NCBI GenBank assembly: GCA_036924085.1
Contig: JAVGWX010000004.1
Coordinates: forward strand, 15,276,454 to 15,340,453
From: Ariolimax columbianus
Lineage: Eukaryota > Mollusca > Gastropoda > Stylommatophora > Arionidae
Reading direction: 5' to 3'
DNA length: 64,000 bases
Part shown: positions 2,560 through 55,418 of the stretch, piece after piece
Numbering within the stretch: position 1 is the first letter of the stretch
How the letters are laid out: each line of letters begins with the position of its first letter
Position numbers and translations under genes: made by a program
Notes under the pieces: model-generated
Seen by the model: the letters and a program-made list of their open reading frames with translations, nothing else
Database searches by the model: none
Told to the model about the DNA's origin: nothing

Positions 2560-4020
2560 AATGTAAGGGAAATAACTCAAATTGCAAAACAAAGTGTTTT
2601 TAATATGTGATTTTGTTATTCTCGTCCTAGTTTTAGAGTTAACGGACTTGGTTCTTGAACAAAAATTCATCGCAGCTGTAAGTGCTTCCAAATAGGGTTA
2701 TTGTTTTCCCAACAAAAGCTGTGTTTCAGATACTTGTTCTCTAGAAAATGTTTCTTATGAAAGTCAATTAGGGAAACATCCCTGATTGTTGTCTTCAGAT
2801 CGGAGCTCTCTTGCTATTCAATTAGTTTCAAAGAGGGTGAAGATTGTTTCACTCCAACATCAAATGGGGAAGAGAAGATTTTAAACTTTAATTATTTTGC
2901 TCGAAAATAATGGGACGTGGTGAATTCTTTATTCAAAGACTTCAACTCGTCTGCAAATGAATGACAACATTGTTGTTTTGGTGCGAAAATGTGAGAAAGC
3001 AGCAAATATTGTCTACCCTTAGTTGACTTTACCACAATCGGGATTCGTTCTGAAAGAACTTAATGTGTTGTATGCAGGAAATGTTCTTAAGTTTGTGACT
3101 TGCCATTTAGTTTAATAAGAAGATTTGTAACGTCAACAAGACATGTCAATTCCGCAGCCAACTTATGCTTTTTATCTCTCACTGACGTTTTCCTTTCATT
3201 TTCATGAAAATATTGACCTCATCTTTCAAAACATTAAAAACGTATCAGCATGTTCCAGTTACTTAATTATGGCACTTCACAGTAAAGAGTGAGGTCTTCA
3301 AGCTCGGATTTAACATCTTTGAGAAACTCTCGAAACTGGTCTGGGGGTTAATGCCCTCGTTTTAGGGACATTTATGAAGGAAACTAACGTTGTCATGAAG
3401 TCCCCGCATTTAATTGGTTTTGCACAGACGTATTGTTGGTGTAACATGCAATGAAGAATAAATACATCTTCTATATTGGTGTTCATATCAGCTAACATTG
3501 TTCTGATTTTAGCTAAATCGTTTAAGTTTGACCCAATCATTGCTGGTCCTCATCGGTTCATATCCCGCTTAGTTTCTCCCCGTTAAGGTCAAATTGATTA
3601 AAAACGTTTGTTACTTCCTGGTAAAAGTATTCTTCCACTGCAGTATGTTTCGCTGCCTGAGAAGAACGTAATCCTTTCGTACAACTGAATTTAGCACAGA
3701 CTCCACGGACAAATATAACCAACTGAACGGTATATTTATCGTCTAGAACAATTGACAAAGCTTCAAATTGTGACGCAAGTTCCTTGATGCTTAATTTGAT
3801 GACCATTTTGTCGATACGTGTTGTCAGTTCAACGAAAACGACTTATTTGATCAATGTCCTTGCATGCTTAAGGACACGATACTTAAGTGATAGCACTGAG
3901 ACACTGTTAGGCAAAGTCTCTTTCGGAATATGGCTTTGAGTGATTCTCAATTTTTCACTGACCATTAAAGCTTGCCTGAGCAATGTTGTTAGCTTTATAG
4001 TTATGGAAAGAAACAAAACA
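2560..4020 (-). pseudogene. Broken hAT transposase, GTF2IRD2/ZBED-like type
   Basis: Minus-strand remnant of a hAT-superfamily transposase of the domesticated-looking GTF2IRD2/ZBED5/SCAND3 type. Pieces read in order from right to left: SFEALSIVLDD-like catalytic-region wording (SQFEALSIVLDDKYTVQLVI) near 3780-3720, VEEYFYQEVTNVFNQFDLN and EKLSGI near 3640-3560, HCMLHQQYVCAKPIK near 3450-3400, a WLSNWNMLIRF-like piece near 3260, EVFE-RIHHV near 2950 and TLFGSTYSCDE near 2710, which matches the family's C-terminal dimerisation region. Stops and frameshifts split the pieces. No terminal inverted repeats were identified. Confidence 0.75.
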
Positions 4021-6125: not shown

Positions 6126-6368
6126 AATAAACACGAAGTCACTTACGGCACTTGCGATCCATCCTGGAGTGCCATGGATGAACAGAAGGACATATGGATA
6201 GGTACATTCTCGCATCGGTCTTGAACCCATGTAGATGCTCCTCGTGCAGCGAGGATGTCAGCTCCACGAATGACGGTTACGCACCCAAATATATTCTATG
6301 TAAACATTTTGCTGATGACAAACAAGAAAATAAAAATGAAAAAAAAAACCCAGCAGGTTGACCCTATT

Positions 6369-8935: not shown

Positions 8936-9971
8936 GAATGCACTAGCGAATCATAGATAAAGGGACAAATACATATATGGAGTTATATGAAAACATAAAG
9001 GAGTCAAAAAATAAACTTGGGTAACAATAAATCGTCACATCGTTCCTCTCGTGTCGGAGGACGGAGGAAAACAAACAAGCAAACAAAACTGTCATACGAC
9101 ATTTTACCCATTGCTGGGGTAGTCGAGGGGTTTTGAAAGCTGATGACTTGTCAGAGGACGGATATAACACAAATTATTATGTCAAGCCCGAGAAAGACTT
9201 ACGCGTCGAGGTCAGTCTATTGAGGTGCAATAAGCAATGCGAGTGGACGGGGGAGATGCTGATCGTCTGCAAAAGTGAACAAATCTCATAGCCATGGCTG
9301 ACTCACAACATCTCACAGCAGCTGTTCGATGATGAGATATGTGCTACTAAAATCATATCCGCACATGTATGTGGGCGCGTCGAGCACTCTACTACATCTG
9401 GTTTATCCTAACCAGTTTTTAGGGACATGAACGCTGACAGACAACGAAGATGATGTGTCATCCGCTGCAAGTAACTCTCGCTTTCATTAGTGTCCATTTA
9501 TGGGCGTCACTAATTAGGTGACATGGCGTTTGGCTACCTGAAGATTGATAGTTTCTACTGCCGTTTTTCCGCGATTGGTTAAATTTCTTCACTTTGATAT
9601 TCAGATCGTTTGGAAAATCCCATTGCGTCAACATCAGTAGACGGCCGCCGCAATGCTTTGTTTTAACTAGATAGTCGAATGGTCCGTATCAATTTCAGTT
9701 GGCGGTTGAATGCCAACCAACGCTGACAGCGCCAGGAAGCCGCCGCCACCACATAGCTGGAGAGAATTAAAGAGTTTGAGCCACATTCCGAACTAGGCTG
9801 GATGCCTAACAACTCCAGCACATCCACGTCCTGCTTCGTTCCCGCCGTCGACTGATCTAGCCGTCAGAAGCAACCCTTTTCCAGAAGTTGCGGATACAAT
9901 ATGTTGACTTTCCCATACCTACATAATGTCCACACTAATATGTATCAATAAGTTTAGGTTGAATAGCTTAA
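8936..9971. other. Unassigned sequence
   Basis: About 1 kb without a supportable gene. A 75-codon minus frame (8943-9170) has no motif I recognise. Confidence 0.4.
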
Positions 9972-28339: not shown

Positions 28340-28418
28340 CATATTTACATATATATCGTAACTAGACAGATATACACGGTCATATCTAAAAATTATAACT
28401 AGTCATACAGACAGACAT
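28340..28418. repeat. Degenerate AACTAGACAGAC satellite, left flank of rDNA-LINE insertion
   Basis: Same repeat as 26090-26640. Its last 14 bases, ATACAGACAGACAT (28405-28418), recur at 35418-35431 immediately after the LINE's (GAA)n tail. Confidence 0.75.
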
Positions 28419-29049
28419 CTGGGGTAGTTGTCTTGCCGCAGCGACTCAATTTCAACCAGTGTTCGTAAAGCGATCTCAGTCCCGCCAGGCGGAGCGATAG
28501 CGCGGGCTTGCGGAAAACGCTCGCCTGCCTTTCCCCGTAGAGCGAATTGGGTGCGGTTTGTTGCAGCGGCTCCTCCACCGAGGTGCGCTGGTCTGGTCCG
28601 TATCAGGAAACGTGGTCCGTCCGTGGTGATTTATCTAAGGCTTATAGCAGAGCTCGACAGTACGTCTCGCTGGTGGTCCGACTCTCGCAAAGAGCTTGTG
28701 ACCGGCAAATGGAAAGCAGGAATCGTTGCCTCGAGGCCCTGCGTTCTCCTACGGAGAATGGCAGGCAGACAGGCCAAATTGTCTCTAGTCCCAGTGAAAT
28801 TCATCGCCGAGGTCGTTGGGATCCGTTCTGCACAGAGCGCTGCCATCCCTCCTCGAGCGAGCCCGGTCGGTCGGTCGTCTGGTGCGTGTGGGAGGCCCCT
28901 GTCAGGCGGTCCTAGGTCGACGGAGTGAGGGACGGGTGGAACAAACCGTCCGTCCCGTCAGTCGGTCCCTGCGGCCGTCGTCCCAGCGAGGCTTTTTACA
29001 CACCCTTCCTCCGCCGACCGGTGTGTGCTGTACGTACGTCTCCGACAGA
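28419..29049 (+). other. Probable rDNA 5' external transcribed spacer segment
   Basis: 631 bp, clearly more GC-rich than the flanks, directly continuous with the 5' end of the 18S sequence. I infer 5' ETS from that position; I cannot confirm it without the organism's rDNA unit. It starts exactly at the base after the candidate target duplication, so its first base may correspond to a transcription start. The open frames in it (28428-28928, 28547-28915) have no protein motif and are attributed to low stop density in GC-rich DNA. Confidence 0.6.
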
Positions 29050-29791
29050 TATCTGGTTGATCCTGCCAGTAGTCATATGCTTGTCTCAAAGATTAAGCCA
29101 TGCATGTCTAAGTTCACACTGTCTCACGGTGAAACCGCGAATGGCTCATTAAATCAGTCGAGGTTCCTTAGATGACACGATCCTACTTGGATAACTGTGG
29201 CAATTCTAGAGCTAATACATGCTTACCAAGCTCCGACCCTCGCGGAAAGAGCGCTTTTATTAGTTCAAAACCAATCGTCGTTTCCCCTCGCGGGGTTGCG
29301 GCGTCCCCACTGGTGACTCTGGATAACTTTGTGCTGATCGCATGGCCTCATGTGCCGGCGACGCATCTTTCAAATGTCTGCCCTATCAAATGTCGATGGT
29401 ACGTGACATGCCTACCATGTTTGTAACGGGTAACGGGGAATCAGGGTTCGATTCCGGAGAGGGAGCATGAGAAACGGCTACCACATCCAAGGAAGGCAGC
29501 AGGCGCGCAACTTACCCACTCCCGGCACGGGGAGGTAGTGACGAAAAATAACAATACGGGACTCTTTCGAGGCCCCGTAATTGGAATGAGTACACTTTAA
29601 ACCCTTTAACGAGGATCTATTGGAGGGCAAGTCTGGTGCCAGCAGCCGCGGTAATCCCAGCTCCAATAGCGTATATTAAAGTTGTTGCAGTTAAAAAGCT
29701 CGTAGTTGGATCTCAGGCGCAGGTGGGCGGTCCGGCTCGCGCCGGTTCACTGCCCGTTGTCTCCTGCCCTACCGTCTGCCGGCTCTCTCCC
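29050..29791 (+). rRNA. 18S rRNA, 5' portion (partial gene)
   Basis: Starts at the universal 18S 5' end (ATCTGGTTGATCCTGCCAGT) and proceeds colinearly through AAGCCATGCATGTCTAAGT, GAATGGCTCATTAAATCAG, GGTAACGGGGAATCAGGGTT, GTGCCAGCAGCCGCGGTAAT and AAAAAGCTCGTAGTTGGATC into the V4 region. It stops at GGCTCTCTCCC near 29791. Conserved positions look intact, so this part is young or conserved. As a gene it is incomplete and would not give a functional 18S. Confidence 0.95.
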
Positions 29792-29842
29792 ACAAGTGTT
29801 TGGGTTCCGGGGGAAGTATGGTTGCAAAGCTGAAACTTAAAA

Positions 29843-29877
<35 letters not shown>

Positions 29878-29901
29878 GCGGCTTAATTTGACTCAACACG
29901 G
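29792..29901 (+). rRNA. 18S rRNA, internal segment after a deletion
   Basis: Sequence resumes with GTTTGGGTTCCGGGGGAAGT, GGTTGCAAAGCTGAAACTTA, ATTGACGGAAGGGCACCACC and GGCTTAATTTGACTCAACAC, then leaves 18S at about 29901. Relative to a standard 18S, several hundred bases between V4 and this block are missing, and so is everything 3' of it. The last 59 bases are the block that recurs at 30038 and 30219. Confidence 0.92.
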
Positions 29902-30540
29902 CCAACACTGAAATGATTGACATGCCGAGACCACTCTTCTGGGTCTAATATGGAACTGGTGCTGGATTTAGACCCTCAGAAATCTGGGGCTATGCCCCCT
30001 GTGGCCCGGTTTGGTCTGCATCCAGTGTTCTGAAAAAGGAACTGATGGAAGAGCACTATCAGGAGTGGAGCCTGAGGCTTAAATTAACTTAACACGCCAA
30101 TACTGCAGAATGACTATCAAAAAGTACACCTTCGTGGGGTCTAATAGAGAACATGTGCTGGAATTAGACCCTCGAAAATCTGGGGCTACCCCCTAAGAAA
30201 CTTGATTGTCTCGCTAAGGGAATTGACGGAAGGGCACCACCAGGTGTGGAACCTGCGGCTTAACTTGACTGAACACGCCAATACTGTAGAACAACTGACA
30301 AATCGAGAGCACTGCCGTTTGGGTCTAATAATGAACGTACGCTGGTATTAGACTCACGGATGACAAGTCAGCTCTCAAACACTGAAATGAAAGAACGCTA
30401 CGGAAATCGTGTTTAACTCCGCAGAAACCGCAGATTTCAAATACCTGGTCATTGACAAACAAAAGCCCTCAATAAATTCGTCTGACCAAATAGTGAACGG
30501 GTGCTGGAAATAGATCATCTGAAGACAGGTCAGTTTTACC
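29843..30540 (+). repeat. Tandem ~180-195-bp units, each with an 18S-derived 59-mer
   Basis: 18S-type 59-bp blocks occur at 29843-29901, 30038-30096 (about nine differences) and 30219-30277 (about four). Each is followed by a shared non-rRNA segment (CCAATACTG..., a GGGTCTAATA..GAAC..GTGCTGG block, AATCTGGGGCTA). Further decayed units without the 18S part lie at about 30320-30370 and 30484-30530. They form the transition from 18S to the LINE 5' region. Confidence 0.85.
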
Positions 30541-31481
30541 CTACAAATGACAGGGCGCTGCTACGGAAAACCAGCTCAAATCGAGAGTAGCCGCAGACAC
30601 TTTGGTTCACGTACCAGGCTGATAAGCCAAGGGCGCGAGGCTACCATGTGGGAGATTACGGCCGAACCCTTGTAAGCCGCAATCCCACCCAAAATCTCAG
30701 CACCACTGCAATGGGAGGCTCCTACATGCTCGGGACCTGGGGCTTGCGCCCCAGCCCTATCAGGTAGAGCCACAGTAAGAGGTCCTTGCCGTCCGCCAAT
30801 CAAAGCGGGCGGACAACTGCTTGATACTCACCTTATAGGGCGATTGGGTGCGAAACCACCAACCAAAGACTTAGTACCTGGTCGGGGTGTCGAAAACAGT
30901 AGAGCAGCCACCTCACTGTGAACTGTCAAGACTCAACCACTGACCATGAGAGTTGTCCGCACACCAGGCGAACAACATCTCTGTGACATTACCAGGCTTG
31001 TCCTCTGGCTAAATGCACACCGGCTACGATATCTACCTCTGTACGCTATCAGCCATAAAACTATCATGCTGGACGCAGAAGAGATGCAGACCAGCGGACA
31101 TTGCACACCTGCCCCACTGTGTCAACACCCCAGGTGGCGGGGAATGCCAGGCGTACCATCCCTGCATAGAAGCCAAGAAAATAAAAGGAAAAAGAGATAC
31201 CCCACTCACATGCAAATGCTACGTTTCTGGCAGGACGTGACGATCCTGGGATACAGACACACTGGACTGCCTCTCTTCCGGGTAAACCAGTCCATCTCAT
31301 ATATCATCTCACATATTATCATTGCACCCTATAGACACGAGTAGTGAAGACTCGATAGTCTAGTAAGAGAACTTCCATAAGAGAGACAACTCTGATCATA
31401 AACAACTGCTGCCTTGCAGATAGGCTGGGGACAGCCAAAGGCTAAGGAGGGCATCCCTACAGAAACGCCTGTTGAAATCGG
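30541..31481 (+). other. LINE 5' region with possible ORF1 remnant
   Basis: About 940 bp between the 18S-derived units and the LINE ORF. A frame at 31013-31240 carries a Cys/His-rich piece (HCVNTPGGGECQAYHPCIEA followed by KKIKGKR) that recalls a degenerate CCHC knuckle from an I-type LINE ORF1, but the Cys spacing is not canonical. 31400-31481 shares blocks with SINE-2 (GGCTAAGGAG, TGTTGAAATCGGATG). Confidence 0.4.
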
Positions 31482-34400
31482 ATGCACGGGGCCGCAAGCC
31501 TAACAAAACAGTGCAACGTAAATCGCAGTATGATGGCAGTACAACCTATCAGAAAAACGCATGGCGCTCATCCTGCGGAGTCCCGCCAGGCAGCGATAGT
31601 GCCGGGCCTCACGCCTCGAAGGGGCCCACCCTTGACTACTGGTGGTCACCCACCCATGTGTCGTGGAGTCAAGGCACATGGCTATGGGGCAACTTCTATT
31701 GGCCAAAACCTCAAGACCCTCAAAATACTACAGTGGAATGCGGAGGGAGTCATTAACAAAAAACTTTCCCTAACACACCACCTGCATGAAGGTAAGATTG
31801 ACGTGGCATGTATCCAGGAAACGCACCTCAACAATAACCATAAATTCTCAATCAGAGGATACCAGACCTTCCGTCTAGATAGAGAAGGCCACAAAGGAGG
31901 GGTCCTGATACTGACCAGAAACTGCATACCGAGTAGCGCGGTATCTGTCAATCACACCGGACAAGCAGAAATTGTAGGAGTTGACATAATGGCCCAAGAG
32001 ACGAAGCTCCGCATTTTCAATCTGTACGGACCACCAAATAGAGACCTATCGCTCTCGAGTATGGAGGTCAGAGACTCCAACTGCATAGTAGTTGGAGATT
32101 TCAACAGCCACTCGGAGAGATGGGGATACTCTGACACAGACAGCAGAGGTGACGAAGTGGAAGATTGGGAGATAGATGCAAATCTCTCCCTAATCAATAG
32201 GCCGGAGGATAGCCCTAGCTTCTATTCTAGAACATGGCGTACCACCTCGACTCCAGATTTGGCCTTCTCCACACAGGACATACACCATAAAATAGACCGC
32301 CAGGTGCTAAACCAACTGGCAGGTAGCGACCACAGGCCGATCAGACTAAAAATTGACATGGAAGTAGGCCCACAGGAAACAAAACCGCTCCCACGTTGGA
32401 ATTACAAACGAGCCGACTGGGACAGATTTGCAATCCTGACAGATGGGCTGTGTGAAACCATCAACACACGACACTCAAAAATGAAGCCCATGGTAGAGAG
32501 CCTAAGCAAGGCAATAATGCAAACCGCCACTAAAACCATCCCAAGAGGAGCTAGGAAAAACTATAAGCCCTACTGGAATGATGAGTTGCAGAAAGTGGAA
32601 GATGCAGTAACAAATGCTAGGAACATGGCAGAGCGAGAAAAATCCATGGAGGCAAACATCGCCCTCAAAGCCGCCGCGGCGAAGTACAAACACACTCTCA
32701 GGCAAACAGCAAGAGAAAGCTGGAAAAATAAAACGGAAAGTCTAAACCTGGACAAAGACGGGAACAAGCTATGGAAGCTAGTCAGAGCCATGAACGACGA
32801 AACCCCGTCAAATAAACAAATTACTATCAAGCAGGGCGAGAACTTGATCACAGGTAAGAAAGCCGATAACGCCTTTGTCGATCACTATGCCAGAGCAAAC
32901 CACATCGAGGTCCCTGCAGATAAGCATACAGACATTAGCGAAGAGCTAAAGGGACACGAAAACATAAATACGGCTCCTGAAGAGCACATGATGGCCAAAC
33001 TAACAATGCGCGAAATGGAAGAGGCTATGAGAACACTAAAGAAAAGGAAATCTCCCGGAAAAGACGGGATCACAAACGAAATGCTGATGGGGCTGGGCCA
33101 AACAGCGAAGAGGAAATTACTATCAGTCCTGAACCAAAGCTGGAAAAGGGGTATTGTACCCCAGGCATGGAAATACGCAATACTGGTACCAGTACCAAAG
33201 AAAGGAAAGGATAAAACAGATCCAAATGGATACAGGCCCATCAGCCTACTGAGCTGTGTCGGCAAGCTGATGGAACGGATGATAAACACCAGACTGATGT
33301 GGCATCTGGAAGAAAAACGAATACTAATTCCACAGCAAGCCGGCTTCAGACAGCACAGATCCACTGAGGACCAGGTTATCCTCATAGCCCAGGAGATAGA
33401 AGATGCCTACCAGGCACAGAAACACACAGTAGCTGTTTGGGTGGATCTGGAAAAGGCATTTGATAAAGTCTGGAAGGATGGACTTAGAGTCAAGCTAAGA
33501 AGAAGTGATGTCGGTGGGAAGATGTACAAGTGGATCAACCACTACCTCAAACAAAGAACGGCCAGAGTCCAAGTACAAGGGCAGATGAGCAAAAAGGTGA
33601 CACTCGAGCAGGGAGTACCCCAAGGGGGAGTATTGTCACCCACACTCTTCCTGGTATATATAAACGATATTACAGAGAATATACCAAGAAGAGTCCATAG
33701 CTCAATGTTTGCAGACGATCTGGCTATGTGGACCTCTGAAAAGAATCTCACCATAGCAAGAAATCGGATGCAGACGGCCCTAACATCGCTGGAAGAGTGG
33801 GCGAACTCATGGCTGGTCAAAATAAACGAGGAGAAAACCACATGCACAATATTCTCGCTTTCATTAAAACTCCAAAGTACCAAATTAAGTCTAAATGGCA
33901 AATTCCTGCAGCCAAACGACAACCCAACCTATCTGGGAGTCACATTTGATCGGCGCATGACATGGAAAAGTCAGATTGAGAGAAACCGAATGAAAGCCAG
34001 AGAAAGAATGGCAATCATGAGGAAACTTGCTGGCACAAGCTGGGGAGCAGACGAAGGCATACTAAAGATACTGTATACTGGAAGAGTGAGACCAGTTCTC
34101 GAGTATGGCATTGCGGCATGGACAACAGCAGCAAAGGCGAACTTCGATAAAGTTAACAAACTTCAAAACCAAGCCATGAGAATTATAACAGGTGGCATGA
34201 AGTCAACGCCAATTGTAGAACTTGAAAAGATTACAAAACTGCAATCCATGACCGATAGAAGAGACTGCAGAGCCCAGCTGCAGTCAGAGAAACTCCGAAG
34301 ACTGACTGACCATCCAATGCACCAGAGACTAAACAATTTGGGAAATGGGAAACTAAAGCGGAGAAACTTTGCAGAAATAGCCAAAGCAAAGATGCACGAA

Positions 34401-35390
34401 GATCCCATAATCGCACTAACAACACCAAAACCCATCAATACTGTACGAAAACCTACCTGGAGGCAGGATATATTTCCAGAAGTGGTAGAAAATATACCAG
34501 GTATTGCAAACAAAAACTGCCAGACTGAAAAAGAAAGGAGAGATACTACCCTAAGCTTCATAACGAAAAGCTACCCAAGCATGGACTGGACCCATGCATA
34601 CACCGACGGTTCTGTAACAAACACTACACAGAACGGAGGGGCAGGAGCATTCCTGAACCTACCAAATGGCAGACAAATAACACTGTCACTCGCTACTGGT
34701 AAGTACACAAGCAATTTCAGAGCGGAGGCAGAGGCACTGAGGGCGGCAGTGGAAGAAATGGTGACACACAGTGAAAATGAGAGCCAAATAGTCCTGCTGA
34801 CAGATGCTCTCGCCGTAGTCACAGCGCTAAAAAGCCAGAAAAACACTGAGCTTAATGACTTAAGAGCAGCACTCTGCAAACTGTGCCAGCAGTCCACACC
34901 AAAAATGGTAGTGGTACAGTGGGTTCCGTCACACTGCAACATCCAAGGCAACGAGGAGGCAGACAGACTGGCAAAAGAAGGTGCAAGACTACCACAAACA
35001 GATACCAGTATGACGTACGAAGAGTCAAAACGGCTTATCAAAGCCAGATACATGAACAAATGGGAAACCGAACATACTGGTTACACCAAAAACGATGCCT
35101 ATTACCAGTTGAACCGAAGAGAGCAGGTCGTTGTCTTAAGACTTCGCACTGGCCACAACAGACTGAGGTACCACCTATTCAACAAATTGAAGATAGGGTG
35201 TACCGACGAATGCCCGTGCGGTACTGGTAAAATGACCGCTGAACATCTGCTGCAGAACTGCCCGACATACGAGGATCAGAGAGAGCAGATGTGGCCATTA
35301 CCAGTGGAACTGCAAGACAAGCTCTATGGCAGTAGCGAGAGCCTCAGGATGACCGCCGCTTTTTTCGAAAAAATAATGGTTACTGTCTGA
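31482..35390 (+). CDS. LINE ORF2: endonuclease, reverse transcriptase, RNase H, Cys/His (1302 aa, intact)
   Basis: Single uninterrupted ORF of a non-LTR retrotransposon, probably of the I group. It nicks target DNA and copies its RNA there. AP-like endonuclease: LKILQWNAEG near residue 80, QETHL near 112, GDFNSHS near 205, GSDHRPI near 283. RT: NGYRPISLLS near 584, DLEKAFDKVW near 655, QGVPQGGVLSPTLFLVYIND near 710, catalytic FADD near 743. RNase H: YTDGS near 1039, FRAEAEALRAA near 1080, LLTDALAV near 1105, WVPSHCNIQGNEEADRLAKE near 1145-1165, with all four acidic positions present. C-terminal CTDECPCG...HLLQNC (Cys/His, near 1240). The start used is the first Met at 31482, inside a SINE-like module; the conserved endonuclease only begins near residue 80, so the true start may be later. 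All main motifs are intact. It is followed by a (GAA)n tail. Confidence 0.93.
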   Translation: MHGAASLTKQCNVNRSMMAVQPIRKTHGAHPAESRQAAIVPGLTPRRGPPLTTGGHPPMCRGVKAHGYGATSIGQNLKTLKILQWNAEGVINKKLSLTHHLHEGKIDVACIQETHLNNNHKFSIRGYQTFRLDREGHKGGVLILTRNCIPSSAVSVNHTGQAEIVGVDIMAQETKLRIFNLYGPPNRDLSLSSMEVRDSNCIVVGDFNSHSERWGYSDTDSRGDEVEDWEIDANLSLINRPEDSPSFYSRTWRTTSTPDLAFSTQDIHHKIDRQVLNQLAGSDHRPIRLKIDMEVGPQETKPLPRWNYKRADWDRFAILTDGLCETINTRHSKMKPMVESLSKAIMQTATKTIPRGARKNYKPYWNDELQKVEDAVTNARNMAEREKSMEANIALKAAAAKYKHTLRQTARESWKNKTESLNLDKDGNKLWKLVRAMNDETPSNKQITIKQGENLITGKKADNAFVDHYARANHIEVPADKHTDISEELKGHENINTAPEEHMMAKLTMREMEEAMRTLKKRKSPGKDGITNEMLMGLGQTAKRKLLSVLNQSWKRGIVPQAWKYAILVPVPKKGKDKTDPNGYRPISLLSCVGKLMERMINTRLMWHLEEKRILIPQQAGFRQHRSTEDQVILIAQEIEDAYQAQKHTVAVWVDLEKAFDKVWKDGLRVKLRRSDVGGKMYKWINHYLKQRTARVQVQGQMSKKVTLEQGVPQGGVLSPTLFLVYINDITENIPRRVHSSMFADDLAMWTSEKNLTIARNRMQTALTSLEEWANSWLVKINEEKTTCTIFSLSLKLQSTKLSLNGKFLQPNDNPTYLGVTFDRRMTWKSQIERNRMKARERMAIMRKLAGTSWGADEGILKILYTGRVRPVLEYGIAAWTTAAKANFDKVNKLQNQAMRIITGGMKSTPIVELEKITKLQSMTDRRDCRAQLQSEKLRRLTDHPMHQRLNNLGNGKLKRRNFAEIAKAKMHEDPIIALTTPKPINTVRKPTWRQDIFPEVVENIPGIANKNCQTEKERRDTTLSFITKSYPSMDWTHAYTDGSVTNTTQNGGAGAFLNLPNGRQITLSLATGKYTSNFRAEAEALRAAVEEMVTHSENESQIVLLTDALAVVTALKSQKNTELNDLRAALCKLCQQSTPKMVVVQWVPSHCNIQGNEEADRLAKEGARLPQTDTSMTYEESKRLIKARYMNKWETEHTGYTKNDAYYQLNRREQVVVLRLRTGHNRLRYHLFNKLKIGCTDECPCGTGKMTAEHLLQNCPTYEDQREQMWPLPVELQDKLYGSSESLRMTAAFFEKIMVTV

Positions 35391-35417
35391 CTGCGTACGA
35401 AGAAGAAGAAGAAGAAG
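35391..35417 (+). repeat. LINE 3' end and (GAA)n tail
   Basis: The stop codon is followed by CTGCGTACGAAG and six GAA triplets. The second copy ends in the same way (CTGCGTACGATGAAGAAG). Confidence 0.9.
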
Positions 35418-35431
35418 ATACAGACAGACAT

Positions 35432-52695: not shown

Positions 52696-55418
52696 AATAC
52701 CAGAACTCTAAACCAAACAGCAAGAGAGAGCTGGAAAAACAAAACCGAAAGCCTCAACCTAGACAAAGAAGGGAATAAGCTATGGAAGCTAGTCAGAGCC
52801 ATGAATGACGAAACCCCTTCAAACAAACAAATTACCATCAAGCAGGGCGAAAACTTGCTCACTGGAAAAAAAGCCGCAAACGCTTTTGTAGAACACTATG
52901 CCAAAGCAAACCACATCGAGGTCCCTGCAGATAGGCATACAGACATTAGTGAAGAGCAAAACGGGCACGACAACATCAATACGGCACCAGAAGAGCATAT
53001 GATGGCCAAATTAACAATGAGTGAAATGGAAGAGGCCATGAGAACACTAAAGAAAAGGAAATCTCCCGGAAAAGACGGGATAACAAACGAAATGCTGATG
53101 GGGCTGGGCCAAACAGCGAAGAGGAAACTGCTATCGGTCCTGAACCAAAGCTGGAAAAGGGGAATTGTACCCCAGGCATGGAAAGACGCAGTCAAGGTAC
53201 CAGTACCAAAAACAGGAAAGGACAAAACAGATCCAAATGGATACAGGCCCATCAGCCTACTGAGCTGTGTCGGCAAGCTGATGGAACGTATGATAAACAC
53301 CAGACTGATGTGGCATCTGGAAGAAAAACGAATACTAATTCAACAGCAAGCCGGCTTTAGACAGCACAGATCCACTGAGGACCAGGTCATCCTCATAGCC
53401 CAGGAAATAGAAGATGCCTACCAGGCACAGAAACACACAGTAGCTGTTTGGCTGGATCTGGAAAAGGCATTTGACAAAGTCTGGAAAGACGGACTTAGAG
53501 TCAAGCTAAGAAGAAGTGATGTCTGTGGGAAAATGTACAAGTGGATCAACCATTACCTCAAACAAAGAACGGCCAGAGTCCAAGTACAAGGGCAGATGAG
53601 CAAAAAAGGTGACACTCGAGCAGGGAGTACCCCAAGGGGGAGTACTGTCCTATATAAGCGACATTACAGAGAATATACCAAGGAGAGTCCATAGCTCAAT
53701 GTTTGCAGACGATCTGGCTATGTGGACCTCTGAAAAGAATCTCACCATAGCAAGAAATCGGATGCAGCAGGCCCTAACATCGCTGGAAGAGTATGCGAAC
53801 TCATGGCTGGTCAAAATAAACGAGGAGAAAACCACATGTACAATATTCTGGCTTTCAATCAAACCCCAAAACACCAAATTAAGTCTAAATGGCAAATTCC
53901 TGCAGCCAAACGACAACCCAACCTATCTGGGAGTCACATTTGATCGGCGCATGACATGGAAAAGTCAGATCGAGAGAAACCGAATGAGAGCCAGAGAAAG
54001 AATGGCAATCATGAGGAAACTTGCTGGCACAAGCTGGGGAGCAGACGAAAGTATACTAAAGAAACTGTACACTGGAAGAGTGAGACCAGTTCTCGAGTAT
54101 GGCATTGCGGCATGGACAACAGCAGCAAAGGCGAACTTCGATAAAGTTAACAAACTTCAAAACCAAGCCATGAGAGTTATAACAGGAGGCATGAAGTCAA
54201 CGCCAATTGTAGAACTTGAAAAGATTACAAAGCTGCAACCCATGACCGATAGAAGAGACTGCAGAGCCCAGCTGCAGTCAGAGAAACTCCGAAGACTGAC
54301 TGACCATCCAATGCACCAGAGACTAAACAATTTGGGAAATGGGAAACTAAAGCGGAGAAACTTTGCAGAAATAGCCAAAGCAAAGATGCACGAAGATCCC
54401 ACAAACGCACTAACAACACCAAAGCCCATCACTACTGTACGAAAACCTACCTGGATGCAGGATATATTTCCAGAGGTGATAGAAAATATACCAGGTATCG
54501 GAAACAAAAACTGCCAGACTGAAAAAGAAAGGAGAGATACTACACTAAGCTTTATATCGAAAAACTACCCAAGCATGGACTGGACCCATGCATACACCGA
54601 CGATTCTGTAACAAACACTACACAGAACGGAGGGGCAGGAGCATTCCTGAACCTACCAAATGGCAGAAAAATAACACTGTCATTCGCTACCGGTAAGTAC
54701 ACAAGCAATTTCAGAGCGGAGGCAGAGGCACTGAGGGCGGCAGTGGAAGAAATGGTGACACTTAAAGAAAATGAAAGCCATATAGTCCTGCTTACAGATG
54801 CTCTGGCCGTAGTCACAGCGCTAAAAAGCCAGAAAAACACTGAGCTTAATGACTTAAGAGCAGCACTGTGTCAACTATGCCAGCAGTCCGCACCAAAAAG
54901 GGTAGTGGTACAGTGGGTCCCATCACACTGCAACATCCAAGGCAACGAGGAGGCAGACAGACTGGCAAAAGAAGGTGCAAGACTCCCACAAACATATACT
55001 AGTATGACGTACGAAGAGTCAAAACGGCTTATTAAAGCCAGATACATGACCAAATGGGAAACTGAACATACCGGCTACACCAAAAACGATGCCTTTTACC
55101 AGTTGAACAGAAGAGAGCAGGTCGTTGTCTTCAGACTTCGCACTGGCCACAATAGACTGAGGTACCACCTATTCAACAAATTGAAGATAGGTGGTACCGA
55201 CGAATGCCCGTGTGGTACCGAGAAAATGACCGCTGAGCATCTGCTGCAGAACTGCCCGACATACGAGGATCAGAGAGAGCAGATGTGGCCATCACCAGTG
55301 GAACCACAAGACAAGCTCTATGGCAGTGTCGACAGCCTCAGGATGACCGCCGCTTTTTTCGAAAAAATAATGGTTACTGTCTGACTGCGTACGATGAAGA
55401 AGAAGAATACCAGAACTC
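52696..55418 (+). pseudogene. 5'-truncated, frameshifted second copy of the 31.5-kb LINE
   Basis: Starts at about 52709 in the segment equivalent to 32699 of the intact copy and runs to the tail at 55405. AATACCAGAACTC at 52696-52708 and 55406-55418 is a 13-bp target duplication. It reads at over 90% amino-acid identity to the intact copy by eye. It is broken by one extra A in a run at 53602-53607 (+1 frameshift) and by an 18-bp deletion near 53650 that removes part of the SPTLFLVYIND stretch of RT. RNase H is complete except for YTDDS instead of YTDGS near 54600. The C-terminal Cys/His region has CPCG and LLQNC intact. It lacks the endonuclease. Confidence 0.93.

Follow-up and report, generated by a model that had tools for sequence, protein, structure and literature searches.

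The R-type LINEs of ribosomal DNA (rDNA), such as R1 and R7, insert inside rRNA genes. R2 and R8 also belong to this type, R8 targeting 18S, and they resemble the family described here in being LINEs tied to the pre-rRNA, but they insert in rRNA genes (as outlined in the parts of PMC5035012 considered here), whereas the copies examined here are scattered through the genome and bring their rRNA segment with them. Closer in structure are the L1 chimeras with U6, 5S, 28S and other RNAs, for which the portion of the source used here counts 18 loci carrying 28S, of median length 269 nt, and tens of loci carrying other RNAs (PMC13174262). They share with our family a cellular RNA on the 5′ side of a LINE, target site duplications (TSDs) and an endonuclease motif, and template switching or ligation is proposed there; in contrast, the family described here has thousands of copies and one joint, its 1.9-kb head extends to the inferred start of Pol I transcription, and a partner element bears the same head.

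An R2 element of Drosophila ambigua has a 156-bp U12 snRNA 5′ extension, probably from a single jump or from one inserted unit that was duplicated (PMC3414825), and is thus comparable as a template jump that may found a subfamily with a foreign RNA head. Unlike the present family, R2 is site-specific in 28S, and the text of that report available to us describes no renewal from a host gene. The Cassandra elements are similar in that their rRNA-derived part tracks the host rRNA gene; unlike the LINE studied here, they are LTR elements, and this part is derived from 5S and supplies an internal promoter (PMC10853983, in excerpt). The SINEs with 5S or 28S heads likewise place an rRNA-derived head on a LINE-mobilised unit (PMC13174262, same portion), whereas the head described below sits on an autonomous LINE and comprises ETS plus two thirds of 18S. 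Among titles and abstract openings, with preprints and most subscription papers outside this scope, we recognised no account of such a family.

Results

Structure of the element

The LINE copy in the window (the whole stretch of 64,000 nucleotides of Ariolimax columbianus DNA analysed here) spans positions 28417-35417, about 7 kb, with all features on the + strand, and is flanked on either side by the TSD ATACAGACAGACAT, at 28405-28418 and 35418-35431. A preliminary description had read this 14-bp repeat as a possible target duplication, with the element starting at 28419. The duplication stands, both copies being found, and exact TSDs of at least 10 nt occur in 17 of the 20 other copies fetched (none was found in L016, which has one mismatch, L019 or L027), but the element starts at 28417: the final AT of the TSD overlaps its own first bases, fetched copies have a like layout, and ATCTGG opens the 17 fetched copies with the start listed.

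The head, which makes up the first 1.87 kb, consists of 633 nt of 5′ETS (28417-29049) followed by 18S 1-1240 minus a deleted stretch. From its first base onward, the ETS part matches the transcribed spacer of an actual rDNA unit (L057, C50:317300-319700, the single unit read), the homology opening directly after ...GGAATGTATATT, and we infer that 28417 probably corresponds to the pre-rRNA transcription start, +1. The 18S part (Rfam match, E 4.2e-175, and alignment) comprises residues 1-744 at 29050-29793 and, 3′ of a deletion of ~388 nt, residues 1133-1240 at 29794-29901. Since 19 of the 20 fetched copies retain the missing stretch (L027 ends differently), the deletion is, by this comparison, private to the window copy among the copies compared. 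The second 18S segment and the joint between 18S and LINE, designated X (29901/29902), were both placed by comparison with 18S and with the fetched copies.

Beyond X lies a LINE 5′UTR (29902-31481), whose first bases are still 18S-like, from about position 1260. It contains two degenerate 18S pads of about 60 nt each, their edges taken directly from the sequence, at 30037-30096 (about 87% to 18S; counterpart in L018 at 135-196 after X) and 30218-30277 (about 94%; counterpart in L018 at 315-377 after X), as well as a decayed 28S rRNA 3′ end at 30552-30954 (model 3005-3399 of 3401, 64.2 bits). What had been called tandem 18S-derived units are indeed 18S-derived, but they are these two pads within a 5′UTR that also holds the 28S remnant. 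An intact ORF of 1302 aa (31482-35390) and a (GAA)n tail (35399-35417) follow; with such small corrections, the proposed order of ETS-like DNA, 18S, deletion, 18S, intact LINE ORF and tail is present. This LINE occurs a second time at 52705-55407, as a 5′-truncated copy flanked by a separate TSD (GAATACCAGAACTC).

The ORF encodes endonuclease, reverse transcriptase and RNase H, as judged by a domain search (Pfam PF14529, PF03372, PF00078 and PF00075). Its top PDB match is L1 ORF2p (E 1e-29), its top full-length protein match stands at 68%, and its nearest named protein matches are uncharacterised Littorina saxatilis proteins. An AP-type endonuclease and a reverse transcriptase in one ORF, together with variable TSDs, a tailed 3′ end and 5′-truncated copies, identify it as a non-LTR retrotransposon. 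Within the assembled rDNA no fixed site in rRNA genes, as of an R-type LINE, was found, the copies lying at unrelated dispersed flanks; the arrangement is that of U6/L1-kind template jumps, with a cellular RNA in sense on the 5′ side of the LINE and within one TSD pair.

Copies across the genome

At least 2,839 exact copies of the +1 5′ end (a pattern that leaves out C at −14) and 6,262 X joints (at most 3 mismatches) are present in the genome, each reversed-pattern control giving 0. The rDNA unit L057 has C at −14 and T at +21, and hence falls outside the +1-start pattern. A homology search with the window head returned 39 other scored matches, dispersed and at 99% (40 of 2,830 candidates were scored), and all 20 long copies fetched align from 28417. 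An exact +1 is missing upstream of 64 of the 100 X joints listed (of 6,262), and an exact X joint is missing downstream of 25 of the 61 +1 starts listed (of at least 2,839), a missing partner may reflect mutation, truncation, deletion, another joint or the letter barred by the pattern. T-T-R-A-A is enriched at −14 to −10 in the 100 flanks listed. The 18S sequence continues through X in 278 places, real rDNA counted in, versus the 6,262 X joints, and a non-autonomous partner element of ~3.5 kb has the same head and the same X. The copies are dispersed and inserted with TSDs, their 5′ ends lie at +1, and one joint, X, is dominant.

The same ETS-18S-LINE joints beside different TSDs establish a mobile chimera, the outcome foreseen when a genome search for dispersed copies was first proposed, and the TSDs and recurring starts support the insertion here of a single unit, derived from RNA, that extends from the inferred start of rRNA transcription as far as the LINE tail. 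With so many +1 starts and X joints, the idea of a one-off read-through product can be dropped. The companion idea, a family that had adopted a Pol I promoter, is not supported either: copies start at +1, the head is not evolving with the element, and the rDNA promoter adjoining +1 was absent in all 23 of the 5′ flanks searched (20 fetched copies, the window copy, L058 and the second head of L042; best agreement 11/30 identities), so that none of the 23 carries the upstream Pol I promoter of a Pol I-driven element.

Descent of the head and of the LINE

Compared with L057, the majority sequence of 19 heads (L027, which terminates in an inverted LINE piece, was omitted from the 19-copy comparisons) shows 13 substitutions and 3 indels across the ETS but differences at 0/1,241 positions in the 18S (p 5e-7), pointing to functional rDNA as the probable source of the head. 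A systematic sample of 10 fetched +1 copies of 12 planned (L049 and L055, in which the 18S is broken off and only the first ~200 nt match, were omitted) holds no LINE bodies and avoids best-match bias for this ETS/18S contrast; several ETS versions are found among its heads. One of these versions, that of L047, is separated from the sequenced rDNA unit by 2 substitutions and 2 indels.

Between LINE subfamilies A (12 copies) and B (7 copies) there are 0 fixed differences in the 1,873 nt of the head; the fixed differences start 15 nt after X, beyond which divergence reaches up to ~24%. The 11 A1 copies have shared variants at 0/1,873 sites in the head versus 66/5,486 in the LINE (p 5e-9), with private rates of 3.7 and 4.9 per kb per copy, respectively, in a set that is biased against shared head variants, the 20 long copies having been the top matches in the search with the head of the window copy. 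Adding two A2 copies brings in 3 shared head sites, each linking one A1 with one A2 copy, and 8 shared head sites occur among the 19 copies. With no shared head variants among the A1 copies where the LINE has 66, and with an 18S that is unchanged while the ETS has changed, these comparisons indicate that the head is probably not inherited together with the LINE. Its evolution is not that of the element, so that it seems to be furnished by the host and not adopted; among the sequences compared, the head apparently follows functional rDNA and not LINE descent.

The rDNA arrays lie on contigs apart from the dispersed copies. C39, examined as a candidate LINE-bearing rDNA contig, was rejected, its flank being ordinary DNA and its head beginning at +3. 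In the rDNA contig search, 18S alignments opening at query 354 were seen, which is probably a search margin; the 18S of L057 is uninterrupted.

Joint X and other chimeras

In 19 of the 20 CGG-type joints listed, the last 60 nt before X match real 18S at 97% identity or more, the exception being L043, with another joint 41 nt upstream; L023 is absent from this comparison owing to a mutated X motif. Beyond X the LINE remains collinear with 18S except that about 19 nt of the latter are missing. Several copies are joined differently: 18S to 1293 precedes +1 in L042, 5.8S-ITS2 precedes +1 in L036, ITS1 is joined to the LINE in L041 and L044, 18S to 41 nt of 18S-X-LINE in L043, and the 28S 5′ end to 18S 1062-1240-X-LINE in L037. 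Among the 100 flanks listed, 3 have rRNA directly upstream of +1. The junctions of 18S or ITS2 with +1 and of ITS1 with the LINE show what appears to be template jumping onto rRNA; the joints vary among these chimeras, yet X dominates. A common 3′ end of a 5.8S-ITS2 intermediate was considered and rejected, the shared edge being the end of the L032 segment and other copies ending differently.

Discussion

The best model, which we hold to be somewhat probable, is that the head comes from pre-rRNA by strand transfer in reverse transcription, the autonomous LINE and its ~3.5-kb partner forming one family. An ancestor would have acquired an 18S fragment via a template jump, and the 18S-like stretch adjoining X would today provide a landing pad. 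In target-primed reverse transcription, the enzyme would copy LINE RNA as far as the 18S-identical segment immediately before X, shift by homology onto the abundant pre-rRNA and stop where that template ends, at the 5′ terminus of the 45S precursor. Because the reverse transcriptase would finish on pre-rRNA, every new copy would obtain a fresh head with its 5′ end at +1, even if the source copy had no promoter. It counts against strand transfer that, given the near-identity to real 18S over the 60 nt before X, the putative switch would almost always have to occur no more than a few tens of bases from X. The wider proposal, that the 5′ end is non-heritable, with nearly every round completed on the host's nascent 45S pre-rRNA via an 18S-identical strand-transfer site and the first 1.9 kb host-supplied anew and kept from decay by selection on the host 18S gene, seems to us evenly poised.

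The main rival, possible but doubtful, is a LINE resident at X in some 18S genes, from which the Pol I promoter of the unit would drive one co-transcript, +1-ETS-18S-LINE. Reverse transcription would then place this RNA at scattered sites, where the resulting copies would be dead ends. Such a source explains the sharp, constant joint more simply and gives the 5′ end at +1; it would also fit heads that match functional rDNA in several ETS versions and the same X in several LINE subfamilies, and 18S-targeted LINEs are known, namely R8 (PMC5035012, in part). However, searches with two patterns in which a (GAA)n tail adjoins 18S, together spanning roughly X−23 to X+30, gave 0 matches in an assembly where the arrays are only partly assembled, 14 matches on small rDNA-type contigs pass X uninterrupted, the first bases of the LINE after X are themselves 18S-derived, and the family inserts at dispersed sites. 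Elements resident in rDNA are expected to be homogenised and hence to show little divergence between lineages, and the source lineages here diverge beyond that expectation.

In a self-contained chimera the ETS-18S head would be an ordinary inherited part with an internal promoter, and the whole unit would be mobile. One joint common to thousands of copies and to several subfamilies is what this reading would give, but it is already disfavoured, and improbable, given 0 inherited head variants versus 66 in the LINE, no fixed A/B difference in the head beside the divergence past X, and a source 18S that is unchanged while the ETS changes. Joining at the RNA level before reverse transcription, in which a 5′ fragment of rRNA would be ligated or trans-spliced onto LINE RNA at X, is very unlikely: the joint is constant, and RNA ligation is an option proposed for U6/L1 chimeras (PMC13174262, in the portion used), but the collinearity of the LINE after X with 18S speaks for homology and not for end joining. 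Although rDNA-like sequence is prone to misassembly, an assembly artefact or rDNA spillover, and with it the earlier proviso of an assembly join or a head confined to the tandem rDNA array, is refuted in practice by thousands of dispersed starts and joints with their own flanks and TSDs and by rDNA arrays assembled separately on other contigs.

Published chimeras of LINEs with cellular RNAs, in the accounts as far as drawn on here, are rare events or possible small subfamilies, whereas here a family numbering thousands of copies has the chimera as a standard form, and the sequence evidence indicates renewal of its rRNA head from working rDNA. Questions that can now be tested are whether homologous strand transfer, as used by retroviruses, is open to LINE reverse transcription, whether the nucleolus or its vicinity is where this occurs, and by what means a 5′ end persists without inheritance. 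The dispersed heads may form a record of past versions of the host 5′ETS. They also endanger 18S-based surveys and rDNA copy counts in Ariolimax columbianus.

Anatomy of the window element

In the window, which lies on contig C4 of the 2.29-Gb genome, a 5'ETS, 18S rRNA sequence and a LINE form one retroposed unit between two copies of ATACAGACAGACAT (28405-28418 and 35418-35431), a target-site duplication (TSD). The 633-nt 5'ETS (28417-29049) leads into 18S 1-744 (29050-29793) and, across a gap of ~388 nt between 29793 and 29794, into 18S 1133-1240 (29794-29901). Among the copies seen, this deletion is the window element's own, the stretch being present in 19 of 20 copies fetched elsewhere. 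Beyond the 18S/LINE joint, X (29901/29902), follow a 1.58-kb 5'UTR and an intact ORF of 1302 aa whose domains are endonuclease, RT and RNase H; the unit ends in a (GAA)n tail. A second, 5'-truncated copy of this LINE, 94% identical, lies at 52705-55407 (+) with GAATACCAGAACTC at each end. There is also a 28S rRNA-like fragment at 9465-9924 (-) (model 1898-2354, 138.5 bits), which matched none of the LINE references compared with it.

A dispersed family

The preliminary description had asked whether this was a one-off or a mobile family, and the same joints are indeed found in dispersed copies with TSDs of their own. A genome search with the head (5'ETS plus 18S 1-1240) gave 2,830 candidates, of which the 40 scored were the window itself and 39 further loci matching at 99% and spread over many chromosomes. 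Twenty of these 39 were fetched with their flanks; all 20 align from 28417, their flanks are unlike one another, and 17 have an exact repeat of ≥10 nt that adjoins the tail or lies no more than a few bases from it. Genome-wide, the exact 21-base start at +1, the inferred pre-rRNA start, occurs at 2,839 places (the pattern takes any base except C at -14), a lower bound, and X at ≤3 mismatches occurs at 6,262; both reversed-pattern controls gave 0. In the first 100 flanks listed, T-T-R-A-A is enriched at -14 to -10 (the pattern excludes C at -14), which fits an endonuclease site with ~12-nt duplications.

The 20 fetched copies comprise 12 autonomous LINEs like that of the window (A, including L019 and L025 as A2), seven B copies (L013, L014, L021, L022, L024, L026 and L030) and L027. 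Exact TSDs are present in 10 of 12 autonomous copies, all seven B copies and not in L027; L016 has a TSD with one mismatch, and none was found in the L019 flanks searched. The B copies have the head and X in common with A, differ beyond X and end in a related (GAA)n-like tail; their ~3.5-kb length from +1, their TSDs and the lack of a long ORF within that length mark them as a non-autonomous partner. A third variant after X (CCAAACACTG...), with 18S joined at the same place, was seen in L035, L037 and L039, three of the loci found via 5.8S. In L027, ETS-18S (1-1106) is joined to an inverted LINE piece, as twin priming would give. Codon changes in the A1 ORF divide into 28 synonymous/17 non-synonymous among the shared and 55/139 among the private ones (p 4e-5), and by this difference in ratio the A1 source lineages are under protein selection.

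Source of the head

Tandem rDNA units 12.2-12.3 kb apart are assembled on the small contigs C50, C222 and C190, arrays useful as an rDNA reference for the species, with single matches on C67, C100, C169 and C298. In one real unit, L057 (C50:317300-319700), ...CCCCCGGAATGTATATT is followed by ATCTGGGG; the elements begin where promoter-side homology to this unit ends, a point which we take to be the Pol I start. The rDNA promoter at +1 was absent in all 23 flanks checked.

Against L057 as sole reference, the majority sequence of 19 heads is identical over 1,241/1,241 positions of 18S, while its ETS has 13 substitutions and 3 indels (p 5e-7 for the contrast). For a systematic sample, one in eight of the listed +1 starts was picked (10 fetched, of which 8 could be used over 1.3 kb). 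Compared together with L042, L012 and the real unit, it gave 32 informative columns in the ETS, gaps included, versus one in ~637 nt of 18S. The sampled L047 differs from the sequenced unit by 2 ETS substitutions and 2 indels, the compared 18S being identical. Different ETS versions occur with X: in six of the 10 heads sampled (L047 and L050-L054), an exact X joint follows downstream. A head evolving freely in a selfish element would be expected to lose its 18S as fast as its ETS. Since the 18S stays unchanged while the ETS varies, the heads most likely come from functional rDNA with several ETS versions.

Descent of head and LINE

A and B show no fixed difference across the 1,873 nt of head (19 copies); fixed differences begin 15 nt after X, and divergence climbs to ~24% within 500 nt. 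Of the eight shared head sites listed for these 19 copies, none splits A from B or sets A2 apart from the others; one of them links L023, L025, L013 and L026 across subfamilies. Among 11 A1 copies, window included, 66 of 5,486 LINE sites are shared variants, defining consistent groups, versus 0 of 1,873 in the head, where the choice of long copies as best matches to the window's head biases against shared variants, a bias from which the systematic sample's contrast of ETS with 18S is free. Private mutations number 3.7 (head) versus 4.9 (LINE) per kb per copy. Adding the two A2 copies gives three shared head sites, each uniting one A1 and one A2 copy. These site patterns indicate that the head is not inherited together with the LINE.

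Mechanism

We propose that the enzyme would copy LINE RNA through X into 18S-identical sequence, transfer there to pre-rRNA and finish at the pre-rRNA 5' end. The ancestor probably joined 18S further downstream and later lost ~19 nt at X, because in the bases just 3' of X a resemblance to 18S remains, starting near position 1260. We regard the transfer itself as about as likely as not. The main rival, in which the LINE resides in 18S at X and is read through from the rDNA promoter, would account equally for the dispersed family, the functional-rDNA heads and the +1 start, but it predicts a LINE tail adjoining 18S downstream of X, for which two patterns (about X-23 to X+30) gave 0 matches, and 14 matches on small contigs run through X (arrays partly assembled, only 40 candidates scored); we consider it rather unlikely.

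The proposed transfer to pre-rRNA has parallels in other joints. 18S to 1293 (L042) and 5.8S-ITS2 (L036) are joined to +1, the former to that of another head; ITS1 meets the LINE 26 or 694 nt downstream of X (L041, L044). The 28S 5' end is joined to 18S 1062-1240-X-LINE (L037), and 18S up to ~1375 to 41 nt of 18S-X-LINE (L043); L040 reads LINE-rRNA-LINE. These alternative joints show that the enzyme moves readily onto rRNA. rRNA lies upstream of +1 in 3 of the 100 flanks listed, and 18S runs through X at 278 places, real rDNA among them. At C1:43936242-43936276 (-), ETS +5 to +18 lies directly 5' of +1, as if the enzyme had copied the pre-rRNA end twice. Dispersed 5.8S with ITS pieces, many fused to LINE sequence, was also seen (L031-L040, L045), and such copies are a hazard for rRNA-based surveys.

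Relation to known systems

In the literature searched, judged by titles and the starts of abstracts, no LINE family with an ETS-18S head was recognised. According to the portions consulted, R8 inserts in 18S (PMC5035012), R2 in Drosophila ambigua may have given rise to a subfamily with a U12 head (PMC3414825), and an octopus LINE study treats an RTE element, its consulted portion drawing no link to rRNA captured by an RTE element (PMC9115989). The chimeras formed by L1, with 28S in 18 cases (n=18) and otherwise with small RNAs, are scattered in the account consulted (PMC13174262), whereas we file the window family as a LINE for which a template-jump chimera is a standard form. Two old 18S pads and a decayed 28S 3' end lie in its 5'UTR, which suggests that this LINE lineage has long been capturing rRNA.
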